From assembly GCA_015056315.1 (NCBI GenBank), contig SVGN01000001.1, positions 1 to 64,000 of the forward strand: 64,000 nt of DNA, in the 5' to 3' direction. The stretch comes from Clostridiales bacterium. Its GTDB lineage: Bacteria; Bacillota; Clostridia; Christensenellales; Aristaeellaceae. The stretch's first letter is position 1. Each line of letters starts with the position of its first letter. The notes beneath the pieces are model-generated. The model did no database searches. It was not told the origin of the DNA and saw nothing but the letters and a program-made list of their open reading frames with translations. Positions 38,751-49,909 of this stretch are shown here, one piece after another. A program made the position numbers and the translations under genes.

Positions 38751-38826
38751 TCTTATGGAAAAACAGCCCGTCTGTATGGAAGGGATCTGCCAAGGGTAAA
38801 TGTATCTCTAACTGAACAGCTACACA

Positions 38827-38870
38827 AAAAGCACGGATCTCCTGCGTTTCAACAGGGAGCCGTGCTTTTG
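38827..38870. terminator. Bidirectional terminator
   Basis: AAAAGCACGG ... CCGTGCTTTT. Confidence 0.8.
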
Positions 38871-38904
38871 ATTCTTTGATGGGTTCGGTAAATGCTATGC
38901 AATT

Positions 38905-39072
38905 TCAGGTGGGCAATGCGTAGATCTGAAGCGGATCATAAGCGTTCGGGTCTGTCAGCGCTTTATCGGCAAGATTGATGAAGCACAGGCGCAGCAAAGA
39001 GCTTTGGTACTGATCGACCAGACCGATCAATCGCTCATCATGGTTTCTGTCCGGGCCCTTGATAGGTTCCAT
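38905..39072 (-). pseudogene. Truncated ECF sigma factor (N-terminal ~30 aa only; 55-aa ORF)
   Basis: MEPIKGPDRNHDERLIGLVDQYQSSLLRLCFINLADKALTDPNAYDPLQIYALPT aligns at its N-terminus with MDVVKDPDNDRDQVLVQMVNQYQGLLLRMCYIYLRD of the intact paralog; identical GTGTAAGGAGGTGAGCAGCAGATG start context to the sigma gene at 43726. Confidence 0.75.
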
Positions 39073-39137
39073 CTGCTGCTCACCTCCTTACACTAATACT
39101 GACGATGCTCAATAGTCGATTTTCGGAATTTAAGAAA

Positions 39138-39161
39138 ATTTTATCAGATATTTGGTGATAT
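39138..39161 (-). promoter_or_regulatory. Shared upstream motif, copy 1
   Basis: ATTTTATC-N11-GATAT. Confidence 0.5.
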
Positions 39162-39164
39162 GAA

Positions 39165-39194
39165 AAGAGCGCCTGCCCCGAAAGGCAAGCGCTC
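39165..39194 (-). terminator. Conserved hairpin terminator of sigma/membrane-protein locus 1
   Basis: minus strand GAGCGCTTGCC-TTTCGG-GGCAGGCGCTCTTTT. Confidence 0.85.
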
Positions 39195-39296
39195 GCTGTA
39201 TTACCATTTGGTCGAACTGCTTCCTACCCTGCAAAACTTTTCGCATCGTATGCTAACTCATGCCCACCCGGTGTGGGTGGGCATCGAAAGCTATCA

Positions 39297-41012
39297 TCAG
39301 CCATTCCCGGTATTGGCGGGCTGCACCTCTACCTCAGTGAGTACCATCAAGCCATTGGGGTCATCGAAAGCCACGCGGAAGCCATTGCTCATAAGCTCAG
39401 GGTCGCTGGTAATGTACAGCAGCCATGCAATACGCACACCCTCTGTTTCCTCATAGCGGCAGCAGATCGCGCCAACTTGATAATCCCCCAGCTGCTCCAA
39501 AGCTTCCTTACCGTGCTTTTCTTCAATAGCCCGCAGCGCCATCTCAACCGCCTCTTCACGGGTCATTTCATCGCCCTCAGGAACGTGGTGATGACCGCCT
39601 AATGCATTCTTCTGTGCTTCCAGAGGCCAGAAAAACCAGGTGTCGGCATACTGCTGTGTGTGGGCGTCATAAGCATCTGCCTGACGCTCCTTTTCGGCGA
39701 TTTTCGCAGCCTCCTCTGCTGTGGGCGTGATGGCTACTTTGGGATTTGCATCCAGCACGGTAAAGGGAACATACATCATCATGGATTCGGAATTTCCGTA
39801 GTCATACTGTCGCATTTCAAGGACCACGCCTGTCATGCAGTCCAGCTCTACACACCAGATGGCATCGTAGGTAGCACTCGCTTCGTTGCCGGGGAAATGG
39901 ATTCTCAATGTTACCTTGTAGATTGCGCGACCATTGGAAGTACAACAGATAACCTGCGACCTTGTTTGGCCCTCCAGAGAAACAGCCTCCTGCGCGATTC
40001 CAAGTGCCTTCAAAGCCGGGATGCTGCCCTCCGGCGGCATGCGGTAGCCTGCCTCGGCGTAGCGTTTCTCCCAGACCTCCACGGGTTCAAGCTCCGCAAT
40101 CAGCTCGCCGAACTCCGCCCACGCTTCGACTGTCCAGCTGGCTGGATCGCCGTATTTCATATCCATCATTTCCTCAGCATGAGAGTAGGAGCGGGCTTTG
40201 GCGTCTTCCTTCAGAAACCACGCCATTTCACTTTCCAGCAGAGTTCCCTGCTGGTCGAAGGATACCCAGTATTCCGTTTCACCGGAAGCTGGATTGACAT
40301 ACTCAAACTTCCACATGGCATTGTGATGTCCCTCATAATCGTTCCACGGTGCGTAGAACCACTCCCACAACTTCCATTGCTCGTTGCTCTCCACGGGAAG
40401 CGTAACACCGTATTCATCATAGAGGAGCTGTGCTGCGTGCGTTTTTGCTTCCGGGATGGTCATGTCACCTTCGCCGGGAATGGCGTAGTTGTTCCGCTCC
40501 TTGAAGCCAATCTGAAGCATCATTTCATCAAACCAATGCTTCTGCTCAATCGTCCATGCATAATGCAATCCGCCGAAAGCCTCGCGGCAGATGGCCATGA
40601 TGACCTCTTCCTCCCAATAGCCCTGGCCATTGCGGAGTGCAGCCATGATACGGCCATCCTCCTCCAGTGTGATTCCATTCTCGTTCAACGTCTGAATCAG
40701 CTGCACCAATTCCTCATGAGTAAAGGATTCCTGAACATAGCCTGCGCTGTCATTCTGCTGCGCCATTGGTACAGCTTCCTGCTCAACGAAATCCATTCCT
40801 GTCAGCAGTGCAACAGCCAGCGCAGTCAGCGACATCAACATGAATACCAGCAACAAGACAAATCCAACGGATAATTTGTTCTTCACAATTACTCTGCCTC
40901 CTGATTTTGAGGCATGCAGCACGCGCTGAACCATGTATGGGTCGGGTGAATATGCGGGACTATGTGTGTCTATGGCATAGCGAACCTGCTCCCTCAGCTT
41001 CTTTTCATCCAT
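39297..41012 (-). CDS. Single-TM putative anti-sigma / sensor protein with PepSY-like extracytoplasmic region
   Basis: 8-nt overlap with sigma gene; N-terminal cytoplasmic module DPYMVQRVLHASKSG, one TM, large extracytoplasmic part with repeated Y-x-V-x-x-D..TG-V-L patterns. Confidence 0.7.
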   Translation of the reverse strand: MDEKKLREQVRYAIDTHSPAYSPDPYMVQRVLHASKSGGRVIVKNKLSVGFVLLLVFMLMSLTALAVALLTGMDFVEQEAVPMAQQNDSAGYVQESFTHEELVQLIQTLNENGITLEEDGRIMAALRNGQGYWEEEVIMAICREAFGGLHYAWTIEQKHWFDEMMLQIGFKERNNYAIPGEGDMTIPEAKTHAAQLLYDEYGVTLPVESNEQWKLWEWFYAPWNDYEGHHNAMWKFEYVNPASGETEYWVSFDQQGTLLESEMAWFLKEDAKARSYSHAEEMMDMKYGDPASWTVEAWAEFGELIAELEPVEVWEKRYAEAGYRMPPEGSIPALKALGIAQEAVSLEGQTRSQVICCTSNGRAIYKVTLRIHFPGNEASATYDAIWCVELDCMTGVVLEMRQYDYGNSESMMMYVPFTVLDANPKVAITPTAEEAAKIAEKERQADAYDAHTQQYADTWFFWPLEAQKNALGGHHHVPEGDEMTREEAVEMALRAIEEKHGKEALEQLGDYQVGAICCRYEETEGVRIAWLLYITSDPELMSNGFRVAFDDPNGLMVLTEVEVQPANTGNG

Positions 41013-41526
41013 GCAGATACCCCCTTCCCAGAATGGTTTCCAGCCTGGCACATGCCTGCTTGATTCTCTTTGATACGACGGAAGCGGACACGCCCAGCGC
41101 GTCGCTGATCTCTCGCATCGACATGTCATGATAAAAGTACAGAAGCACAGCTTCTTTCAGCTTGACCGGCAGCTGCATGATGGCGCTGGCAAGGTCGAGG
41201 GAGTTATAGCCGTTGTACTCCTGTGATGGCTCCGGAAGCAGGTCAAGAGACACCCTACGATCCACAAAGCGCATCCAGCGGGAGCGCCCCATGTCGCGGC
41301 ACACATTGACTGCTATCCTCATCAGCCACGTCTTTTCGCTGCAATCTCCACGGAAGGTATGTAAAGCTCTGTATGCCTTCAGGAATGTTTCCTGGACAGC
41401 ATCCTCAGCTAAATCCCTGTCGCGAAGGTACATGTAGCATGTACGAAACAGCAAAACTTCATAGGTTTCTACCATGTGCGTTAATATCGCTTCGTGGTCA
41501 TTGCCCGGATCCTTGACAATTTCCAT
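41005..41526 (-). CDS. ECF-type RNA polymerase sigma factor
   Basis: YLRDRDLAEDAVQETFLKAYRALHTFRGDCSEKTWLMRIAVNVCRDM; sigma4 HTH LPVKLKEAVLLYFYHDMSMREISDALGVSASVVSKRIKQA. Confidence 0.93.
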   Translation of the reverse strand: MEIVKDPGNDHEAILTHMVETYEVLLFRTCYMYLRDRDLAEDAVQETFLKAYRALHTFRGDCSEKTWLMRIAVNVCRDMGRSRWMRFVDRRVSLDLLPEPSQEYNGYNSLDLASAIMQLPVKLKEAVLLYFYHDMSMREISDALGVSASVVSKRIKQACARLETILGRGYLHG

Positions 41527-41602
41527 TTGCTGTTTCCCTCCTTTCACTTATATAGACGAAGCATTTCAGATTTTGTAAGCACCTTTTCAGAAATCCATGT
41601 GG

Positions 41603-41626
41603 ATTTTATCAGAAATATGGAGATAT
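41603..41626 (-). promoter_or_regulatory. Shared upstream motif, copy 2
   Basis: ATTTTATC-N11-GATAT. Confidence 0.5.
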
Positions 41627-41631
41627 AAAAA

Positions 41632-41659
41632 GAGCGCCTGCCCCGAAGGGCAAGCGCAG
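41632..41659 (-). terminator. Conserved hairpin terminator of sigma/membrane-protein locus 2
   Basis: minus strand GCGCTTGCCC-TTCG-GGGCAGGCGCTCTTTTTATA. Confidence 0.85.
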
Positions 41660-41687
41660 AAAGGGTTTTGGGGATACTTACATGTGT

Positions 41688-41921
41688 TTATCCGTTGCCA
41701 TTTACTGCTGGGTCAGGTTCACTCAGTACTTCGCCAGTCTCAGCATTGACAATCACGGAGTAGATGGGTTCAATCTGCCCGTTTTCCAGTCGAGCAAAGA
41801 ACACGGTGTACCGCCCATCGAAGGAAAGGTATCGACAGTACTTCGGCACTTCATTACTGTTTGGGGCGAATGACGAACTGAACAGACCTTCCTCCTCCAT
41901 TTGTGTACAGATCCATGTCAT
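41688..41921 (-). CDS. 77-aa PepSY-like C-terminal fragment overlapping the end of the preceding anti-sigma-like gene in another frame
   Basis: RYLSFDGRYTVFFARLENGQIEPIYSVIVNAETGEVLSEPDPAVNGNG; ends like paralog (…ANTGNG); lies before the operon terminator. Confidence 0.5.
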   Translation of the reverse strand: MTWICTQMEEEGLFSSSFAPNSNEVPKYCRYLSFDGRYTVFFARLENGQIEPIYSVIVNAETGEVLSEPDPAVNGNG

Positions 41922-42867
41922 TCATTCCTTCTGTATATTCTACAACTCTATAGGTCAAGATACAGGTGATTCCTTCTTTATCGATACGATCCCGTGCAGC
42001 TTGGGCCATAGCAATTCTCTGCTCATAATACTCTTTCATATCAGGAGTTTCTTCGGCACGTTTTTGCATTTCCTGATCGTATTCATCTCTGAGCCAGCTT
42101 AGATCGAATTTGCCAACAAAGTAAACATCACCGGCAGCAGTTCTGAACATATCCATACTGCTTTCCATGGGGAATACATCTACAGCGTTTTCGATTTCGG
42201 TAGAATAGATGATGTTTGTTCCTGTATAATCCAGCATAAGTAGATTTTTACTGCTGTCATCCATCATAGCGGATACCGGACCATAGCCGGGGATATGTCC
42301 ATACCCTCCAGAGCCATCCAGCCCAATATCCGTCCGCCAAAGCCAGTGCACTGCCCGGTCTTCGCTGTCGTCGGTAACTGTAACAGAACCTCCTTCGCCG
42401 ATATAGCTTCCATCAGTATCCAATGCTCGCATACTGTGAAGCTCATCCTGATCGGGCTTCTTCGGCGTGGCTTTGAAAGAAATGGTCATGATATCAGCTT
42501 CCGGTGCCCACGAAACATCCTGAATGATGATTTGAACCTGATCGTCTTCACACTGCGTCTGCGTGGGGTTTTCCACCATGTTTGCCATGACGGCTTCATA
42601 TAATTCAGGTTTATCGTTCTTTTCAAAAATGTTTCGATTGTTCCACCACCAATCCTGATTGTAGATAATGCCTGCCCCAATCGCAGTAGTCGCGAGGCAG
42701 AGTAAAACGATTACAAGAATCATGGATGTCGATATTTTCTTTACCACTGGTTCTTCTCCTTTCGCATTGGCAAGAACCCGCTGCGCCATCCAGGGATCGT
42801 CCTGAATGCCAGACAGGGAGTTATCGATTACACGCTGAACAATCTGCTTAGCCTTGAGGTCTTCCAT
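41854..42867 (-). CDS. Single-TM putative anti-sigma / sensor protein
   Basis: 20-nt overlap with upstream sigma gene; N-term LSGIQDDPWMAQRVLANAKGEE, TM STSMILVIVLLCLATTAIGAGI. Confidence 0.7.
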   Translation of the reverse strand: MEDLKAKQIVQRVIDNSLSGIQDDPWMAQRVLANAKGEEPVVKKISTSMILVIVLLCLATTAIGAGIIYNQDWWWNNRNIFEKNDKPELYEAVMANMVENPTQTQCEDDQVQIIIQDVSWAPEADIMTISFKATPKKPDQDELHSMRALDTDGSYIGEGGSVTVTDDSEDRAVHWLWRTDIGLDGSGGYGHIPGYGPVSAMMDDSSKNLLMLDYTGTNIIYSTEIENAVDVFPMESSMDMFRTAAGDVYFVGKFDLSWLRDEYDQEMQKRAEETPDMKEYYEQRIAMAQAARDRIDKEGITCILTYRVVEYTEGMNDMDLYTNGGGRSVQFVIRPKQ

Positions 42868-43381
42868 AACCTAACCTCCTCTCCAGCACGTCATAGAGCT
42901 TTTCTCTGGCGCGCTTCAGTCGGGTCGATACAGTAGAATGAGTGATGCCCAGCGCATGGGCGATCTCATTCACATTCATGTTTTGCCAGTAATACAGCAT
43001 GACGACCTCTTTGAGCTTGGGCGGAAGTTTCATAACATCGCACATTACATCAAGATCATCTTCGTCATCCGGCAGTTGAATGGCTTGCGGTAAGTCTTCC
43101 GGCGTAATACGCCTGTCATGGTGACGGAACCAGGCGGAACGCTGCATGTCCCGGCAAGTGTTCATAGCGATCTGGATCAACCAGGTCTTCTCGCTGCATT
43201 CCCCACGGAAAGAATCCAGCGACTTGTATGCTTTGAGGAAAGTATCCTGTGTGGCATCTTTCGCCTGTTCCATATCCCGTAGGTAAATGTAACACATGCG
43301 GAGCAGCAATCCCTGATATTGGTTCACCATCTGAACCAGCACCTGGTCACGGTCGTTGTCCGGATCCTTGACAACGTCCAT
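42848..43381 (-). CDS. ECF-type RNA polymerase sigma factor
   Basis: YLRDMEQAKDATQDTFLKAYKSLDSFRGECSEKTWLIQIAMNTCRDMQRS; sigma4 LPPKLKEVVMLYYWQNMNVNEIAHALGITHSTVSTRLKRAREKL. Confidence 0.94.
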   Translation of the reverse strand: MDVVKDPDNDRDQVLVQMVNQYQGLLLRMCYIYLRDMEQAKDATQDTFLKAYKSLDSFRGECSEKTWLIQIAMNTCRDMQRSAWFRHHDRRITPEDLPQAIQLPDDEDDLDVMCDVMKLPPKLKEVVMLYYWQNMNVNEIAHALGITHSTVSTRLKRAREKLYDVLERRLGYGRPQG

Positions 43382-43459
43382 TCGTTGCTCACCTCCTTCG
43401 ATTATGTAGACGAGGCAGAAATGCCATTATGTCGATCATTCAGAAAATCTTTCTAAAGA

Positions 43460-43483
43460 ATTTTATCTCTTTTGGGGCGATAC
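43460..43483 (-). promoter_or_regulatory. Shared upstream motif, copy 3
   Basis: ATTTTATC-N11-GATAC. Confidence 0.45.
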
Positions 43484-43725
43484 GTCACGCATGAAAGTCG
43501 ATCAGTGCCTTCATATGGGTTTTGAATGGGGCAAGTGGTTCGGAAGCTCGTTGCGGATCGTCATAACCGCTGCCATTCACCCCAAACCAGCCGCACTCAT
43601 GATATGATCGGGAGGCAAAAACCTTCCTTTATATCATATTTGGTTACGATGTTTTTTCTTTTGACCAAAACGGATATTATCTGCCTGCTGCGGAGTCTAA
43701 GAAAGTGTAAGGAGGTGAGCAGCAG

Positions 43726-44241
43726 ATGTTGGAAGTTGTCAAGGTTCCGGGCAACGACCAGGACCGGTTTTTTGTTGGATTGGTAAACGAACACCAGGGA
43801 ATGCTGCTGCGCATGTGCTACGTTTATCTCCGCGACCGGGAGCTGGCCAAGGATGCGGTACAGGAGACCTTCCTGAAGGCGTACCGCAGCCTGGGCGCCT
43901 TCCGGGGCGAAAGCAACGCAAAAACATGGCTGATCAGGATCGCCATCAACACATGCAAGAGCATGCAGCGCTCCGCATGGCTGCGGCATCACGACCGGCG
44001 CATCACGCCGGAGGATATCCCGCAGACCACCGTGATGCCCCTGGCAGAAGACGTGGATGTGATGTGCCACATCATGCAGCTGCCGCCAAAGCTGAAAGAG
44101 GTCATCATGCTGTACTACTGGCAGAACATGAATGTAAGCGAGATCGCGCAGGCGCTTGGCATTGCGCAATCGACCGTATCAAGAAGATTGCAGCACGCAC
44201 GGGAGAAACTCCATAACGTGCTGGACGGGAGGTATGAATAA
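43726..44241 (+). CDS. ECF-type RNA polymerase sigma factor
   Basis: YLRDRELAKDAVQETFLKAYRSLGAFRGESNAKTWLIRIAINTCKSMQRS; sigma4 LPPKLKEVIMLYYWQNMNVSEIAQALGIAQSTVSRRLQHAREKL. Confidence 0.94.
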   Translation: MLEVVKVPGNDQDRFFVGLVNEHQGMLLRMCYVYLRDRELAKDAVQETFLKAYRSLGAFRGESNAKTWLIRIAINTCKSMQRSAWLRHHDRRITPEDIPQTTVMPLAEDVDVMCHIMQLPPKLKEVIMLYYWQNMNVSEIAQALGIAQSTVSRRLQHAREKLHNVLDGRYE

Positions 44242-45524
44242 TGAAAGACCGCAAGGATCGTCAGATCATCCGGCGCGCATTCGAGACCTGCCTTTCCGGC
44301 CTGGGGGAAGACCCCTGTCTGGCCCGGCGCGTGCTGAACATCGCACATGGAAAGGAAGAAAAGAATATGAAGAAAAATAGGCCCGGAAGACACTCCCCCG
44401 GATTCATAGCCGCTGTGCTGGTTTTGGCGCTTGTCTTTGCCACCACGGCCCTTGCCCTTACCCGCCCCGCCGTACTGCGCTGGCTGACCGGCGATGCGCC
44501 TGTAAGCCCGCAGCTGGAGGCCACGGCCCAGAAGATCATTGGCGAAAGCACAGCCGACGGTATTACCGTCCGGATGACCGGCATGGTATTTGATGGCAAG
44601 AAGCTGGCCTTTACCTATGAGCTGGAAAACCAACAGCCGGAACTGCCCGTGCTGGTCGCCGCTGACCCCACGCTGAGCATTGATGGCAAAGAGGTACAAA
44701 TGCTGTACTGTACGGCAGACCCCTACACGCCCCAAATGGTTCCCAGCCCGCATCTGGATGTGCTGCCTGTTAAGCGGAACCCTGTTATGGGCGGCTGCGA
44801 GGCCTACGTAAGCGATGGCGCAGACGGTATGGCGGCTTGCGAAATGACCTTTGTGGTGTACAAGCCCGAAAACCGGTTCGCTGTAGTGCTTCAGCCCGAC
44901 AGTATGCAGGCAAACGCGGCTACCTTTACCGGCGATGCCCGTGCAGAGGCTGAGGATAGCCTGAATACCCTTAAAAGCTTCCGGAATGCTGTCTTTGCCA
45001 CCGAGGCCGACCTTGCCGACGAACAGTGGCTTGCAGACCGCTATACCGTGATCGATGGCTCCGGTATGCTGTATGAGCTGCCCGAAAACAGCCACCTGAT
45101 CGAAGCTTCCCGGATCAAGGTGAGCTTCTCGTTCGATGCTTCCGCTGCATTTGCCTGCGAGATCGCCCATACCGACGATGTTGCCCTGGCAGATGCTACG
45201 CTGCATGTGGAGCAGCTCCGCCTTTCTTCTCTGGAAACGCACCTGGATCTGTGGCTCATCCCGCAGGAGAACAGCAAAAAGGCCGCTCTTGCCATTGCTG
45301 ATCGGTATGGTGCATATACCCTGAACGATGAGCAGGGCAATGCGGTGCAGTACAGCGAGATGGATCAAATGGCGGAGGTTAGGCCCTATGTAACACAGAT
45401 CGATGGTCGGTGGGTATGCCGGTACCTTTCTCAAATGCCCGGTCTGCTCCGGTTCCCCGAGAGCGTTTCGTTCAACGCAGGCGGTGCAGAGCTGATCCGT
45501 TTTGATCTGGCGATCGATGAATGA
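44241..45524 (+). CDS. Single-TM putative anti-sigma / sensor protein
   Basis: Start overlaps sigma stop (TAATG); N-term LSGLGEDPCLARRVLNIAHGKEE, TM GFIAAVLVLALVFATTALAL, large extracytoplasmic region. Confidence 0.7.
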   Translation: MKDRKDRQIIRRAFETCLSGLGEDPCLARRVLNIAHGKEEKNMKKNRPGRHSPGFIAAVLVLALVFATTALALTRPAVLRWLTGDAPVSPQLEATAQKIIGESTADGITVRMTGMVFDGKKLAFTYELENQQPELPVLVAADPTLSIDGKEVQMLYCTADPYTPQMVPSPHLDVLPVKRNPVMGGCEAYVSDGADGMAACEMTFVVYKPENRFAVVLQPDSMQANAATFTGDARAEAEDSLNTLKSFRNAVFATEADLADEQWLADRYTVIDGSGMLYELPENSHLIEASRIKVSFSFDASAAFACEIAHTDDVALADATLHVEQLRLSSLETHLDLWLIPQENSKKAALAIADRYGAYTLNDEQGNAVQYSEMDQMAEVRPYVTQIDGRWVCRYLSQMPGLLRFPESVSFNAGGAELIRFDLAIDE

Positions 45525-45530
45525 CTCTTT

Positions 45531-45568
45531 TGAGCGCTTGCCCCCGAAAGGCAGGCGCTCTTCTCTCT
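45531..45568 (+). terminator. Conserved hairpin terminator of sigma/membrane-protein locus 3
   Basis: GAGCGCTTGCC-CCCGAAA-GGCAGGCGCTCTTCTCTCTTT. Confidence 0.82.
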
Positions 45569-45707
45569 TTGCCCGCACCTCGAAGAGCACAGGCTCTGAA
45601 ATGTGGCCACAAAAGCAGGGGATCCCTGTGTCGCAGCTTTTTCCATCCAGCAAACCCCATACATGGAACAGCCAAAAAAGACACAACATACCTCCAGCAA
45701 CCCGAGA

Positions 45708-47429
45708 ATGGAGGTACAGGTGTTGGTCAGCATGATCCTGTTCGGTATTCAGCTTCTGGTAACCATTGTTGTGGGTGTCTATTTCTACACCCAGCTGCGC
45801 ACCCAGCGCAAGGCACAGCCCGCCCACCGCAGAGAGAGCGGCAGGGAGTACGATAAGCTGCAAAAGCTGCGGGCGCTCCGGCTCAGCGAACCGCTGGCAG
45901 AGAAGGTACGCCCTGCCAAATTCAGCGATATCGTGGGTCAGGAGGATGGTATCAAATCTCTCAAGGCGATCCTGTGCGGCAAGAACCCGCAGCATGTGAT
46001 CATCTACGGCCCTCCCGGCATCGGCAAGACCTGCGCCGCCCGGTTGGTGCTGGAGGCAGCCAAGAAAAGCCCCGGCACGCCGTTTCTCAGCGATGCGCCC
46101 TTTATTGAAATGGATGCCACCTGCGTGCGCTTTGACGAACGCGCCATTGCAGATCCGCTCATCGGCAGCGTGCACGACCCCATCTATCAGGGCGCAGGGC
46201 CGCTGGGCGTGCAGGGCGTGCCCCAGCCCAAGCCCGGTGCGGTGACCAAAGCCCACGGCGGTGTGCTGTTCCTGGATGAGATCGGCGAGCTGCACCCGGT
46301 ACAGATGAATAAGCTGCTCAAAGTACTGGAGGATCGCAAGGTGATGCTGGAATCTGCCTACTACAGCGCAGATGACCACAACGTGCCCCGTTACATCCAC
46401 GATATCTTCAAGAACGGCCTGCCTGCCGATTTTCGTCTGGTGGGGGCTACCACCCGCAGCCCCAGCGAGATCTCGCCCGCCCTCCGCTCCCGTTGTATGG
46501 AGATCTACTTCCGTGCCCTGGAGCCGGAGGAGGTGGCGGATATCGCATATCATTCCGCAGAGCGCGCGGGCTACACCATGACCCGTGAGGATGCGGCACT
46601 GGTGGGGCGCTTTGCCTCCTGCGGGCGGGATGCGGTCAACATCGTGCAGATGTGCGCCGGCCTTGCCCAATTGGAGGAACGCAGGGAGATCCTGACCAAA
46701 GATGTGGAGTGGGTGGTCTACTCCGGCCACTATGCCGCCCGACCCGAGCAGCGGGCGAATACCACCGACCGGGTGGGCGTGGTGCATGGGCTGGCCATCA
46801 TCGGCAGCCATCAGGGCGCTACCATGGAGATCGAGGCCGTGGCACAGAAGGGCTGCGGCAGGCTGCACATCACCGGTATCGTGGAGGAAGAGGAACTTGG
46901 CAGCGACAGCCGCCGCATCCGCCGTAAATCCACCGCCAAAAGCTCCCTTGAGAATGTAATGACCCTGCTTTCCAGCATGGGTTACCCCACGGAGGAATAC
47001 GACCTGCACATCAATTTTCCCGGCGGTACTCCGGTGGACGGCCCCTCTGCCGGTGTGGCCATGGCGGTGGTTGCGGCCAGCGCCCTCACAGGCCGCCCGG
47101 TGGACGGGCATGTAGCGGTCACCGGTGAGGTATCGGTGCTGGGGGCGGTCAAGCCGGTGGGCGGCGTGCCCGGCAAGGTGGAGGCTGCCGAGCGGGCCGG
47201 GCTGACCACCGTGCTCATCCCTGCGGATAACCGGCTGGAACGCTTTGAACATACCACCATCGAGGTCAGACCCATCCATACCCTCCGGGAGGCGCTGGAA
47301 AGGATGCTCCTGCCCGCTCAGGCGCTGGAGGAGCCGAAGAAACAGGCGCTGCCGGAGGTGAACCGCCAAGTGGCGGCCCCTGTGCCCGTGCTCATTGCCG
47401 GGGAGCAGCTGGCCTCCGGCAAGGGCTGA
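45708..47429 (+). CDS. lonB: Membrane-anchored ATP-dependent protease LonB
   Basis: N-term TM (VSMILFGIQLLVTIVVGVYFY), YGPPGIGKT, FLDEIGELHPVQMNKLLKVLEDRKV, catalytic DGPSAGVAMA and PVGGVPGKVEAA; start uncertain (45603/45663/45708). Confidence 0.93.
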   Translation: MEVQVLVSMILFGIQLLVTIVVGVYFYTQLRTQRKAQPAHRRESGREYDKLQKLRALRLSEPLAEKVRPAKFSDIVGQEDGIKSLKAILCGKNPQHVIIYGPPGIGKTCAARLVLEAAKKSPGTPFLSDAPFIEMDATCVRFDERAIADPLIGSVHDPIYQGAGPLGVQGVPQPKPGAVTKAHGGVLFLDEIGELHPVQMNKLLKVLEDRKVMLESAYYSADDHNVPRYIHDIFKNGLPADFRLVGATTRSPSEISPALRSRCMEIYFRALEPEEVADIAYHSAERAGYTMTREDAALVGRFASCGRDAVNIVQMCAGLAQLEERREILTKDVEWVVYSGHYAARPEQRANTTDRVGVVHGLAIIGSHQGATMEIEAVAQKGCGRLHITGIVEEEELGSDSRRIRRKSTAKSSLENVMTLLSSMGYPTEEYDLHINFPGGTPVDGPSAGVAMAVVAASALTGRPVDGHVAVTGEVSVLGAVKPVGGVPGKVEAAERAGLTTVLIPADNRLERFEHTTIEVRPIHTLREALERMLLPAQALEEPKKQALPEVNRQVAAPVPVLIAGEQLASGKG

Positions 47430-47491: not shown

Positions 47492-47554
47492 CATGGGTGG
47501 CTTTTTTGCCGCTTATGATCGTAAGCCTGCCAACGCAGGCATTTGGAGGTACCT

Positions 47555-49909
47555 ATGCAGGAAAAAACTCGCAGAGCCGCGCGTACCACGCTGCCGGTGC
47601 TGCCGCTGAGAGGGATCATGGTGTTCCCTCATATGGTCATGCATTTTGATGTGGGCCGCCCCAAGAGCGTGGCAGCTCTGGAAAAAGCAATGATGGAGGA
47701 TCAGCGCATCTTCCTCGTTACCCAGAAGGATGCGGAGGTGGAGGATCCTGTCCGCACCGATCTGTACACCGTTGGCACGGTGGCCCGTGTAAAGCAGGTG
47801 CTCAACCTGCCCGGCGACAGCATCCGAGTGCTGGTGGAGGGCCTGCACCGCGCCGTGCTGGTGCATGTGCTGGAGACCGAGCCCTTCATGATGGGCGATG
47901 TGCGCAGCGTGCCCCGTGCCCAGTGCGATGCGCTGGAGCTGGAGGCGCTGGTGCGCACCACTCACCAGTATTTTGAGGAGCTGGCAAGAGTCTCCAAGCG
48001 TGTATCCCAGGAGACCCTTCATTCTGTGCTTTCCGTGACCGACCCGGAGCAGCTGGCGGATATCATTGCCGCCAATGTGCTCACCGATCTGGCCGACCGC
48101 CAGTCCATTCTGGAGACCCTGAAGGTATCCGACCGGCTGGAGGCGGTGTGCCGCATCCTGCTTCGGGAGACCGAGCTCTCCGATGTGGAGAAGCAGGTGC
48201 AGAGCCGCATCAAGACCCAGATTGAGCAGAACCACAAGGATTACTATCTGCGGGAGCAGATCAAGGCCATCCAGACCGAGCTGGGCGATAAGGATGCCAC
48301 CGAGGTGGAGGAGCTTCGGGAGCGCCTGAGCAAAACGCCCCTGAACGATGAGGCCCGCCAGAAGGCCGAAAAGGAGATCGACCGCCTTTCCCAGATGCCT
48401 CCGGGCGTGCCGGAGATCAATGTGAGCCGCACCTACATCGAGTGGATCCTGGATCTGCCCTGGGGCAAGACAACCCAGGATCAGCTGGACCTGAAGCGTG
48501 CCCGCAAGGTGCTGGATCAGGAGCACTACGGCATGGAGCAGGTAAAGGAGCGCATCATCGAGTATCTGGCCGTTCTGCGCATGAAGCAGGATATGAAGGG
48601 CCCCATCCTGTGCTTTGCAGGCCCTCCCGGCGTGGGCAAGACATCCATCGTGCGCTCCATCGCCAAGGCTGTGGGCCGCGAATTCGTGCAGATGTCGCTC
48701 GGCGGCGTTCGGGATGAAGCGGAGATCCGCGGTCACCGCCGCACTTATGTGGCGGCCATCCCCGGCCGCATCATTGCCGGTCTCAAGCAGGCGGGCACCA
48801 TGAACCCGGTCTTCCTGTTCGACGAGATCGACAAGCTCACCCAGGGCGCTCAGGGCGACCCTGCCGCTGCCATGCTGGAGGTACTTGATGGCGAACAGAA
48901 CTTTGCCTTCCGGGATCACTATATGGAGCTGCCCTTCGACCTGAGCCGGGTCATGTTCATCACCACCGCCAACAATATCGAGACCATCCCCCCGGCCCTT
49001 CGCGACCGTCTGGAGATCATCGAGGTATCCAGCTATACAGAAGAAGAAAAGCTCCGCATCGCCAAGAAGCACCTGCTGCCCAAGCAGATCACCGCACACG
49101 GCATGAAGGGCGGCAGCGTGCGCATGACGGAGAAGCTCATCAGCACCGTGATCGAGGATTATACCCGCGAGGCAGGCGTGCGCCAGCTGGAGCGCGTACT
49201 GGCCAAGGTGGTGCGCAAGGCCGCCGTGGAGATGCTGGATAAGGACACTCATCAGGTGACCGTTGGTCTGGAAAAGCTGCGCGCCTATCTGGGCGCTGCC
49301 CGTTACACCCGCGAGGGGCTGGAAAGCGTCGACCGGGTGGGCGTGGTCAACGGTCTGGCCTATACCTCTGTAGGCGGCGAGCTGCTGCCTGTGGAATGCA
49401 CCATGATGGAGGGTACCGGCGTTCTGCAGCTCACCGGCAGCCTGGGCGATGTGATGCAGGAAAGCGCCAAGGCCGCCCTCAGCTGGGTGCGTGCCCATGC
49501 TTCGGCCTGGGGCGTACAGGCGGAGTTCTTCCGCAAGCATGATATCCATATCCATGTGCCGGAGGGCGCTGTGCCCAAGGACGGCCCCAGCGCAGGTGTT
49601 ACCCTGACCACCGCACTGGTCAGCGCGCTTTTGGAGATCCCGGTAAAGCAGAATGTGGCCATGACCGGCGAGGTAACGCTCCGCGGCCGGGTACTGCCCA
49701 TCGGCGGCCTGAAGGAAAAGCTGATGGCTGCTTACCGGGCCGGGATCCACACCGTGCTGATCCCCCGTGAGAACATGAAGGATCTGGAGGATGTGGCTCA
49801 GGTGGTGCTGGATAAACTGACCATCAAGCCCATGGACGATGTGGCGCAGGTGCTCTCGCTTGCGCTGGCAAAAGCACTGCCTGTGGCGGAGGTGCCCAAT
49901 GGAGATTAA
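47555..49909 (+). CDS. lonA: ATP-dependent protease LonA
   Basis: LPVLPLRGIMVFPHMVMHFDVGR, CFAGPPGVGKTSIVRSIAKAVGREFVQMSLGGVRDEAEIRGHRRTYVAAIPGRII, KDGPSAGVTLTTAL. Confidence 0.97.
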   Translation: MQEKTRRAARTTLPVLPLRGIMVFPHMVMHFDVGRPKSVAALEKAMMEDQRIFLVTQKDAEVEDPVRTDLYTVGTVARVKQVLNLPGDSIRVLVEGLHRAVLVHVLETEPFMMGDVRSVPRAQCDALELEALVRTTHQYFEELARVSKRVSQETLHSVLSVTDPEQLADIIAANVLTDLADRQSILETLKVSDRLEAVCRILLRETELSDVEKQVQSRIKTQIEQNHKDYYLREQIKAIQTELGDKDATEVEELRERLSKTPLNDEARQKAEKEIDRLSQMPPGVPEINVSRTYIEWILDLPWGKTTQDQLDLKRARKVLDQEHYGMEQVKERIIEYLAVLRMKQDMKGPILCFAGPPGVGKTSIVRSIAKAVGREFVQMSLGGVRDEAEIRGHRRTYVAAIPGRIIAGLKQAGTMNPVFLFDEIDKLTQGAQGDPAAAMLEVLDGEQNFAFRDHYMELPFDLSRVMFITTANNIETIPPALRDRLEIIEVSSYTEEEKLRIAKKHLLPKQITAHGMKGGSVRMTEKLISTVIEDYTREAGVRQLERVLAKVVRKAAVEMLDKDTHQVTVGLEKLRAYLGAARYTREGLESVDRVGVVNGLAYTSVGGELLPVECTMMEGTGVLQLTGSLGDVMQESAKAALSWVRAHASAWGVQAEFFRKHDIHIHVPEGAVPKDGPSAGVTLTTALVSALLEIPVKQNVAMTGEVTLRGRVLPIGGLKEKLMAAYRAGIHTVLIPRENMKDLEDVAQVVLDKLTIKPMDDVAQVLSLALAKALPVAEVPNGD

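Follow-up and report, generated by a model that had tools for sequence, protein, structure and literature searches.

Recurrent exchange of unrelated sensor heads behind a short, putative anti-sigma module in ECF sigma factor cassettes of gut Clostridia

Clostridium thermocellum and its relatives carry several paralogous, autoregulated SigI/RsgI pairs per genome (PMC6056542, PMC12203970), and ClpXP takes fragments of RsgI via XAA motifs (PMC12203970). Anti-sigma factors of the RsiV type (ECF30) have a short, non-zinc cytoplasmic N-terminus and a single transmembrane segment (TM), with a signal peptidase site just after the TM (PMC6066255). CnrY and NepR, which are class II domains, wrap around a closed sigma2-sigma4 (PMC4598750, PMC8103513). 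Class I domains (RseA, RsiW, ChrR) average about 101 aa and are built as a three-helix bundle plus helix 4; their dual contact with sigma2.1/2.2 and sigma4 was found by coevolution, in a survey that excluded domains under 50 aa (PMC7406223).

The sigma/partner cassettes described here resemble SigI/RsgI in that both combine a cytoplasmic anti-sigma segment (putative in the present case), one TM and divergent extracellular sensors, one inhibitor piece serving many sensors (PMC6056542). They differ in using ECF sigma factors rather than SigI, and in the exchange of ectodomains (heads) at one point within near-identical sigma clades that is documented here. No Pfam match to the RsgI N-terminal domain was found in 39 modules or 50 partners, and the Pfam matches of the 50 partners included neither the periplasmic autocleavage domain with a carbohydrate-binding sensor that marks RsgI nor glycosidase sensors. 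The cassettes are RsgI-like in logic, and by these sequence tests they are not RsgI members. With RsiV/DUF4179 proteins they share a short non-zinc N-terminus, a single TM, an A-x-A type site at the TM exit and some weakly DUF4179-like heads (16 of 50 relatives at E <= 0.01, in the membrane-proximal part), but the N-terminal module showed little profile similarity (hhalign against the N-termini of DUF4179 proteins gave a probability of 3.8%, for a short segment and 7 references) and most heads are unrelated to DUF4179. The lysozyme-binding domain, a feature of RsiV, was not found in the cassette partners. Like the class II domains the module is very short, helical by prediction and free of zinc. 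The sigma factor is closed in a structural model, and the module, a candidate for class II, probably locks its sigma as class II domains do; no sequence similarity to them was found, and no exchange of sensor heads is described in PMC4598750 or PMC8103513. The two-site covariation with sigma2 and sigma4 recalls class I, from which the module is set apart by its length of about 48 aa and, in the model, its three short helices.

The cassette array of the window

The window, meaning the whole 64,000-nucleotide stretch that was analysed, contains three cassettes and the remains of a fourth, with the following features.

38779..39106, minus strand: remains of cassette D, the fourth, comprising a promoter, the N-terminus of a sigma and the tail of an ectodomain, and matching the intact cassette of genome G011
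39297..41012, minus strand: partner A, 571 aa, with module, one TM and a large ectodomain; its 5' end overlaps the 3' end of sigma A
40860..41012, minus strand: cytoplasmic module of partner A (SPAYSPDPYMVQRVL...), module profile E 4.1e-15
41005..41526, minus strand: sigma A, ECF sigma factor of 173 aa (Sigma70_r2 1.4e-16, r4_2 7.1e-12)
41554..41582, minus strand: putative promoter through which cassette A would regulate itself (GTGCTTAC-N16-CGTCT), the only match to this pattern in the genome
41688..41860, minus strand: orphan ectodomain tail (...AVNGNG stop), an open frame 3' of partner B
41854..42867, minus strand: partner B, 337 aa, with module, TM and ectodomain; 20-nt overlap with sigma B
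42724..42867, minus strand: cytoplasmic module of partner B (LSGIQDDPWMAQRVL...), module profile E 2.5e-21
about 42772..42778, minus strand: recombination junction in partner B, within the QRVL codons; upstream sites as in G011 B, downstream as in L112
42848..43381, minus strand: sigma B, ECF sigma factor of 177 aa (Sigma70_r2 5.8e-15, r4 1.8e-12)
43409..43435, minus strand: putative promoter through which cassette B would regulate itself (TCGACA-N17-CGTC); the pattern has two matches in the genome, this one included
43726..44241, plus strand: sigma C, ECF sigma factor of 171 aa (Sigma70_r2 2.4e-16, r4_2 1.3e-13)
44241..45524, plus strand: partner C, 427 aa, with module, TM and a DUF4179/DUF5643-like ectodomain; TAATG overlap with sigma C
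44241..44402, plus strand: cytoplasmic module of partner C (LSGLGEDPCLARRVL...), module profile E 1.4e-18

The three sigma genes were found where a preliminary description of this DNA had placed them (with matches to Sigma70_r2 and r4 at E 1e-12 to 1e-16), and all three encode ECF sigma factors with sigma2 and sigma4 only, scoring above cut-off in Pfam and TIGR02937. The translational coupling of each to a single-TM partner, claimed there as well, was confirmed, since the start of each partner gene overlaps its sigma gene; the three peptides quoted are present, the first belonging to B, the second to C and the third to A. The array itself was recovered, but its left limit had to be moved further out, to about 38779, with the deleted fourth cassette.

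Searches of Pfam and TIGR gave no confident family for partner A, B or C. The ectodomain of partner A had a marginal Pfam match to PepSY (E 0.05, below cut-off), partner C matched DUF4179 (E 0.0011; 19.8 bits against a cut-off of 30.1) and DUF5643 (E 0.041), both below cut-off, and partner B had no Pfam family above chance; neither A nor B matched DUF4179 in Pfam. PDB sequence searches with the three partners as queries returned nothing useful, and an AlphaFold2 model of ectodomain B from four sequences (pLDDT 57, pTM 0.58) gave meaningless Foldseek matches. The ectodomains had been called unrelated-looking, and A, B and C are indeed mutually unrelated, but each of them has relatives attached to other sigma factors elsewhere.

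The two halves of relic D, which includes a sigma fragment at 38959-39072, are 81% and 91% identical to the two ends of a cassette that is still intact in G011, a sister genome. They are joined at a repeated AAAGC(A/G)CTG (a repeat of about 9 bp), so that the fourth cassette was lost by internal deletion. The orphan tail at 41688-41860 lies directly after the stop of partner B and has the AVNGNG ending that is common to several other heads; it weakly matches the C-terminus of another head (E 0.002) and PepSY (E 0.042, below cut-off), and we read it as the remainder of a lost ectodomain. A 25-nt perfect inverted match links 43704-43728, where sigma C has its leader and ribosome site, to the corresponding stretch of relic D at 39070-39094, hinting at an exchange between them. 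Cassettes D and A are each preceded by a copy of a 55-nt direct repeat (91%; 39138-39192 and 41603-41657) with a terminator-like hairpin, and similar sequences also stand before cassettes in loci L040, L059, L074 and L102. The GC content is 0.50 over 40001-44000 and about 0.59 around it. Two Lon-type protease genes (45603-47429 and 47543-49909) adjoin the array, and related cassettes in G011 have other neighbours.

The cytoplasmic module and its sigma factor

Cassettes were collected from loci of the genus, from genomes of GTDB species (79 loci, almost all of uncultured Clostridia and many from ruminant guts) and from the GTDB family, giving 126 and later 198 unique coupled cassettes from this one family, mostly of ruminant-gut Clostridia and nearly all from metagenome-assembled genomes. 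Translational coupling of sigma and partner was seen in nearly all cassettes collected. The module comprises about 48 residues, the median length ahead of the TM in 126 cassettes being 48, and has the consensus A-I-D-x-x-L-S-G-L-x-x-D-P-x-L-A-Q-R-V-L-x-x-A-K-G-E-x-x-x-K-K-K-x-S. A profile of module plus TM was dropped in favour of a module-only profile (47 positions, 39 rows, including the three window modules), because the former gave many TM-only false matches outside the family. With a threshold of E <= 1e-4, the module-only profile found matches in 45 of the 100 family genomes and in 0 of a sample of 299 genomes from elsewhere in the phylum. Used genome-wide, it bore out beyond chance the common N-terminal module that had been proposed (E 2.5e-21, 1.4e-18 and 4.1e-15 for three copies that are among its 39 rows).

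The HxxxCxxC motif of zinc anti-sigma domains (ZAS/zf-HC2), said in the preliminary description to be missing, was found neither in the three window modules nor in any of 126 related ones; the sole PF13490 match of the genome lies elsewhere, on contig C48. Comparison with known anti-sigma families had been named beforehand as a check. A Pfam and NCBIfam scan of 39 modules gave isolated, chance-level matches and no consistent family, a PDB sequence search with the module gave no match, and hhalign yielded the low DUF4179 probability given above. The module, which has no model in Pfam or NCBIfam, appears to be a new, short family of anti-sigma domains.

Duplication of the cassette, likewise proposed, was supported; the same architecture stands beside other sigma paralogues in the genome and was seen in 198 cassettes overall. 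Among the further close sigma paralogues with this partner type in the genome is a tandem pair on contig C73 (L024, G000:C73:20000-32000), with identical sigma proteins and diverged ectodomains, which is likely a recent duplication. Two other partners of this genome have heads that were judged by eye to be unusual, one with propeller-like repeats (L022, 4242-6461) and one with a solute-binding-like part (L023, 5834-7927).

Covariation was scored over 198 pairs (effective 159) as APC-corrected mutual information, in the numbering of L136. Couplings between sigma and module reached z 7.0 against a shuffled maximum of 3.64, and eleven exceeded z 4, compared with none between sigma and 40 TM/ectodomain-proximal residues. 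They fall into two groups, one joining sigma E23/K24 (region 2.1) to module positions 24, 25, 28 and 29 in the motif helix, and the other joining sigma 104-112, at the start of region 4.1, to module positions 17-18 at the end of helix 1. When relatedness was controlled for by 86 disjoint contrasts between nearest neighbours, the sigma2.1 block held (p 0.007) and the sigma4.1 block was weak (p 0.07), the blocks having been chosen on the same data. Contact of the module with sigma2 and sigma4, another check named beforehand, is thus favoured by covariation.

In L136 the start of the partner lies in frame, 6 nt beyond the TGA of sigma, so that this natural pair can be read as one chain (table 4). 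Small balanced alignments replaced large ones that mixed sigma-only and module-only sequences and misaligned. The AlphaFold2 prediction of the single chain had a pLDDT of 84.2 and a pTM of 0.77, with three short module helices at 174-188, 190-194 and 199-206. Its best PDB matches in Foldseek include SigW/RsiW, RpoE/NepR and CnrH/CnrY (target TM-score 0.71-0.73, 2.9 to 5.0 A), against about 0.3-0.5, mostly at about 25 A, for RNA polymerase-bound sigma factors. The model sigma superposes at 2.9 A on CnrH of the CnrY complex; a compact prediction is also possible for an ECF sigma on its own. This resemblance to anti-sigma-locked, closed ECF sigma factors is support for, and not proof of, module contact. 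The earlier reading of a compact, non-zinc anti-sigma module is supported by the covariation and the model together, and the short partner segment very probably holds its sigma silent.

Exchange of sensor heads

When all pairs of the 126 cassettes were compared, identity between sigma factors correlated with identity between modules (Mantel r 0.59, reached by 0 of 200 permutations), and the correlation of sigma identity with ectodomain similarity was 0.03 (reached by 50 of 200). On the sigma tree, ectodomain type changes 42 times (109 cassettes, 15 types), which lies between the minimum of 14 and the shuffled mean of 70.6, so that heads are partly inherited and often replaced. Half of the 30 sigma clades of at least 75% identity (15, among 194 cassettes) contain two or more unrelated ectodomains; L059, L074 and L108, for instance, have sigma factors 95-98% identical and near-identical modules, and carry three different heads. 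Across 23 swap pairs, identity stays mostly at 0.7-1.0 through DPxLxQRVL and then drops from the next residue.

Within the window the break can be placed in partner B, whose DNA is G011 B-like up to about 42778 and L112-like from about 42772, which pins the junction to about 6 nt. The L112-like similarity is 84.7% over 955 bp and ends at the stop codon. The sigma of L112 is only 45% identical to sigma B, yet its head reaches 0.86 of the self score, and the G011 orthologue has a sigma 92% identical to sigma B but a C-type head. The same junction is found in an independent assembly, L067 (96% over 1661 bp), and the G011 arrangement of a B module with a C-type head recurs in L068, where the sigma is 78% identical. 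The swapped orthologue of window A is L056, with a sigma of 86% identity and another head.

By these comparisons unrelated sensor halves have repeatedly replaced one another at a single fixed position, and the coupling of one module to different ectodomains is a recurrent exchange of heads that goes beyond a one-time duplication. This recurrence at a single point is the new element; nothing on point was found in the literature on exchange of anti-sigma sensor domains, a weak absence as the search covered open-access papers only. A silent store of heads was sought with head A only, giving one distant relative just upstream of a sigma gene on contig C58.

A proposed transmembrane switch and its alternatives

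An A-x-A stands at the outer TM end in 181 of 198 cassettes, with 101 expected from composition by shuffling and 24 in the next window of residues. Considering the RsiV cleavage site after the TM and the XAA motifs of RsgI fragments, a common cleavage port for all heads is plausible by analogy, with A-x-A as its site. Upstream of 66 of 113 sigma genes CGTCTA was found (2.6 expected). The -35 varies by sigma group, being GTGCTTAC in A and TCGACA in B; the cassette B promoter is conserved in L030, L067 and L068, and promoter C is without the CGTC core. Genome searches for targets of the A and B promoters gave only these promoters themselves plus one doubtful site, so that no regulon could be named. 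As each -35 with CGTC occurs in this genome essentially only at its own cassette, the pattern suggests that the cassettes are insulated, autoregulated circuits.

We propose, with a probability of roughly 82% for the full explanation, that a new, compact, class-II-like anti-sigma domain is combined with exchangeable sensor heads, so that each cassette, with its translationally coupled sigma and partner, would form a transmembrane switch. The first 32-48 or so residues of the partner would be a compact helical anti-sigma domain, and covariation and structure prediction point to binding in which the end of helix 1 lies against sigma4.1 and the DPxLxQRVL helix against sigma2.1. This packing would keep sigma closed and off RNA polymerase. 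By analogy with RsiV, a signal at the ectodomain may expose the A-x-A at the outer TM end, and proteolysis may then free the sigma, which, to judge from the promoter motif, would drive expression of the cassette that encodes it, from a CGTCTA promoter bearing a -35 particular to that sigma. The family would grow by cassette duplication. New inputs would arrive by recombination, which, as the comparisons show, swaps TM and ectodomain just after the conserved motif, and the motif DNA may serve as the homology arm. Since the exchange falls just after this motif, sigma and inhibitor would stay matched while the sensor changes.

The partners might instead be ordinary ECF30-type (RsiV/DUF4179) anti-sigma factors, the module being the short N-terminus typical of them and their heads having diverged past recognition without any exchange. 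In RsiV-type proteins, too, the N-terminus is short and free of zinc and a signal peptidase site follows the TM (PMC6066255), DUF4179 N-termini show a loosely similar P-x-x-L pattern, and 16 of 50 partners have the weak membrane-proximal DUF4179 match. We nevertheless consider this unlikely, as hhalign gave the module 3.8% probability against DUF4179 N-termini (a short segment, 7 references), searching the own genome for DUF4179 gave no match at E 1e-8, and divergence cannot produce a head that is near-identical across sigma factors of 45% identity and unrelated at 92%. A very improbable alternative is that the module is a membrane-insertion or stability segment of partners that are not anti-sigma factors, the correlation with sigma reflecting co-inherited adjacent DNA. 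Adjacent DNA is co-inherited, so that the tree correlation alone is no proof of contact; yet the TM, only about 50 codons away, shows no coupling with sigma above z 4, the breaks are concentrated after the motif, and nearly all cassettes are translationally coupled.

Least probable of all, in our estimate, are head swaps that arose as chimeric assemblies of repetitive paralogues in metagenomes. Nearly all of the data are metagenome-assembled and the module DNA is common to paralogues, but the recurrence of the window B junction in L067, that of the G011 arrangement in L068, and swaps in many independent clades all argue against such artefacts. Going beyond the switch with exchangeable heads, the DNA coding for DPxLxQRVL could be a maintained recombination port for active, possibly programmed plugging of heads, similar to shufflons or receptor-diversifying systems but acting on transcription factors, which we regard as quite unlikely.

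The switch with exchangeable heads touches the open question of how signalling pathways gain inputs without losing specificity. Near-identical sigma factors and inhibitors joined to unrelated sensors at one cut point amount to a natural swap experiment carried out many times over. If binding is confirmed, the cassettes would supply naturally occurring sigma/anti-sigma pairs whose point of fusion is defined, a short family of anti-sigma domains missing from Pfam and NCBIfam, and a testable set of sensors from uncultured rumen bacteria.
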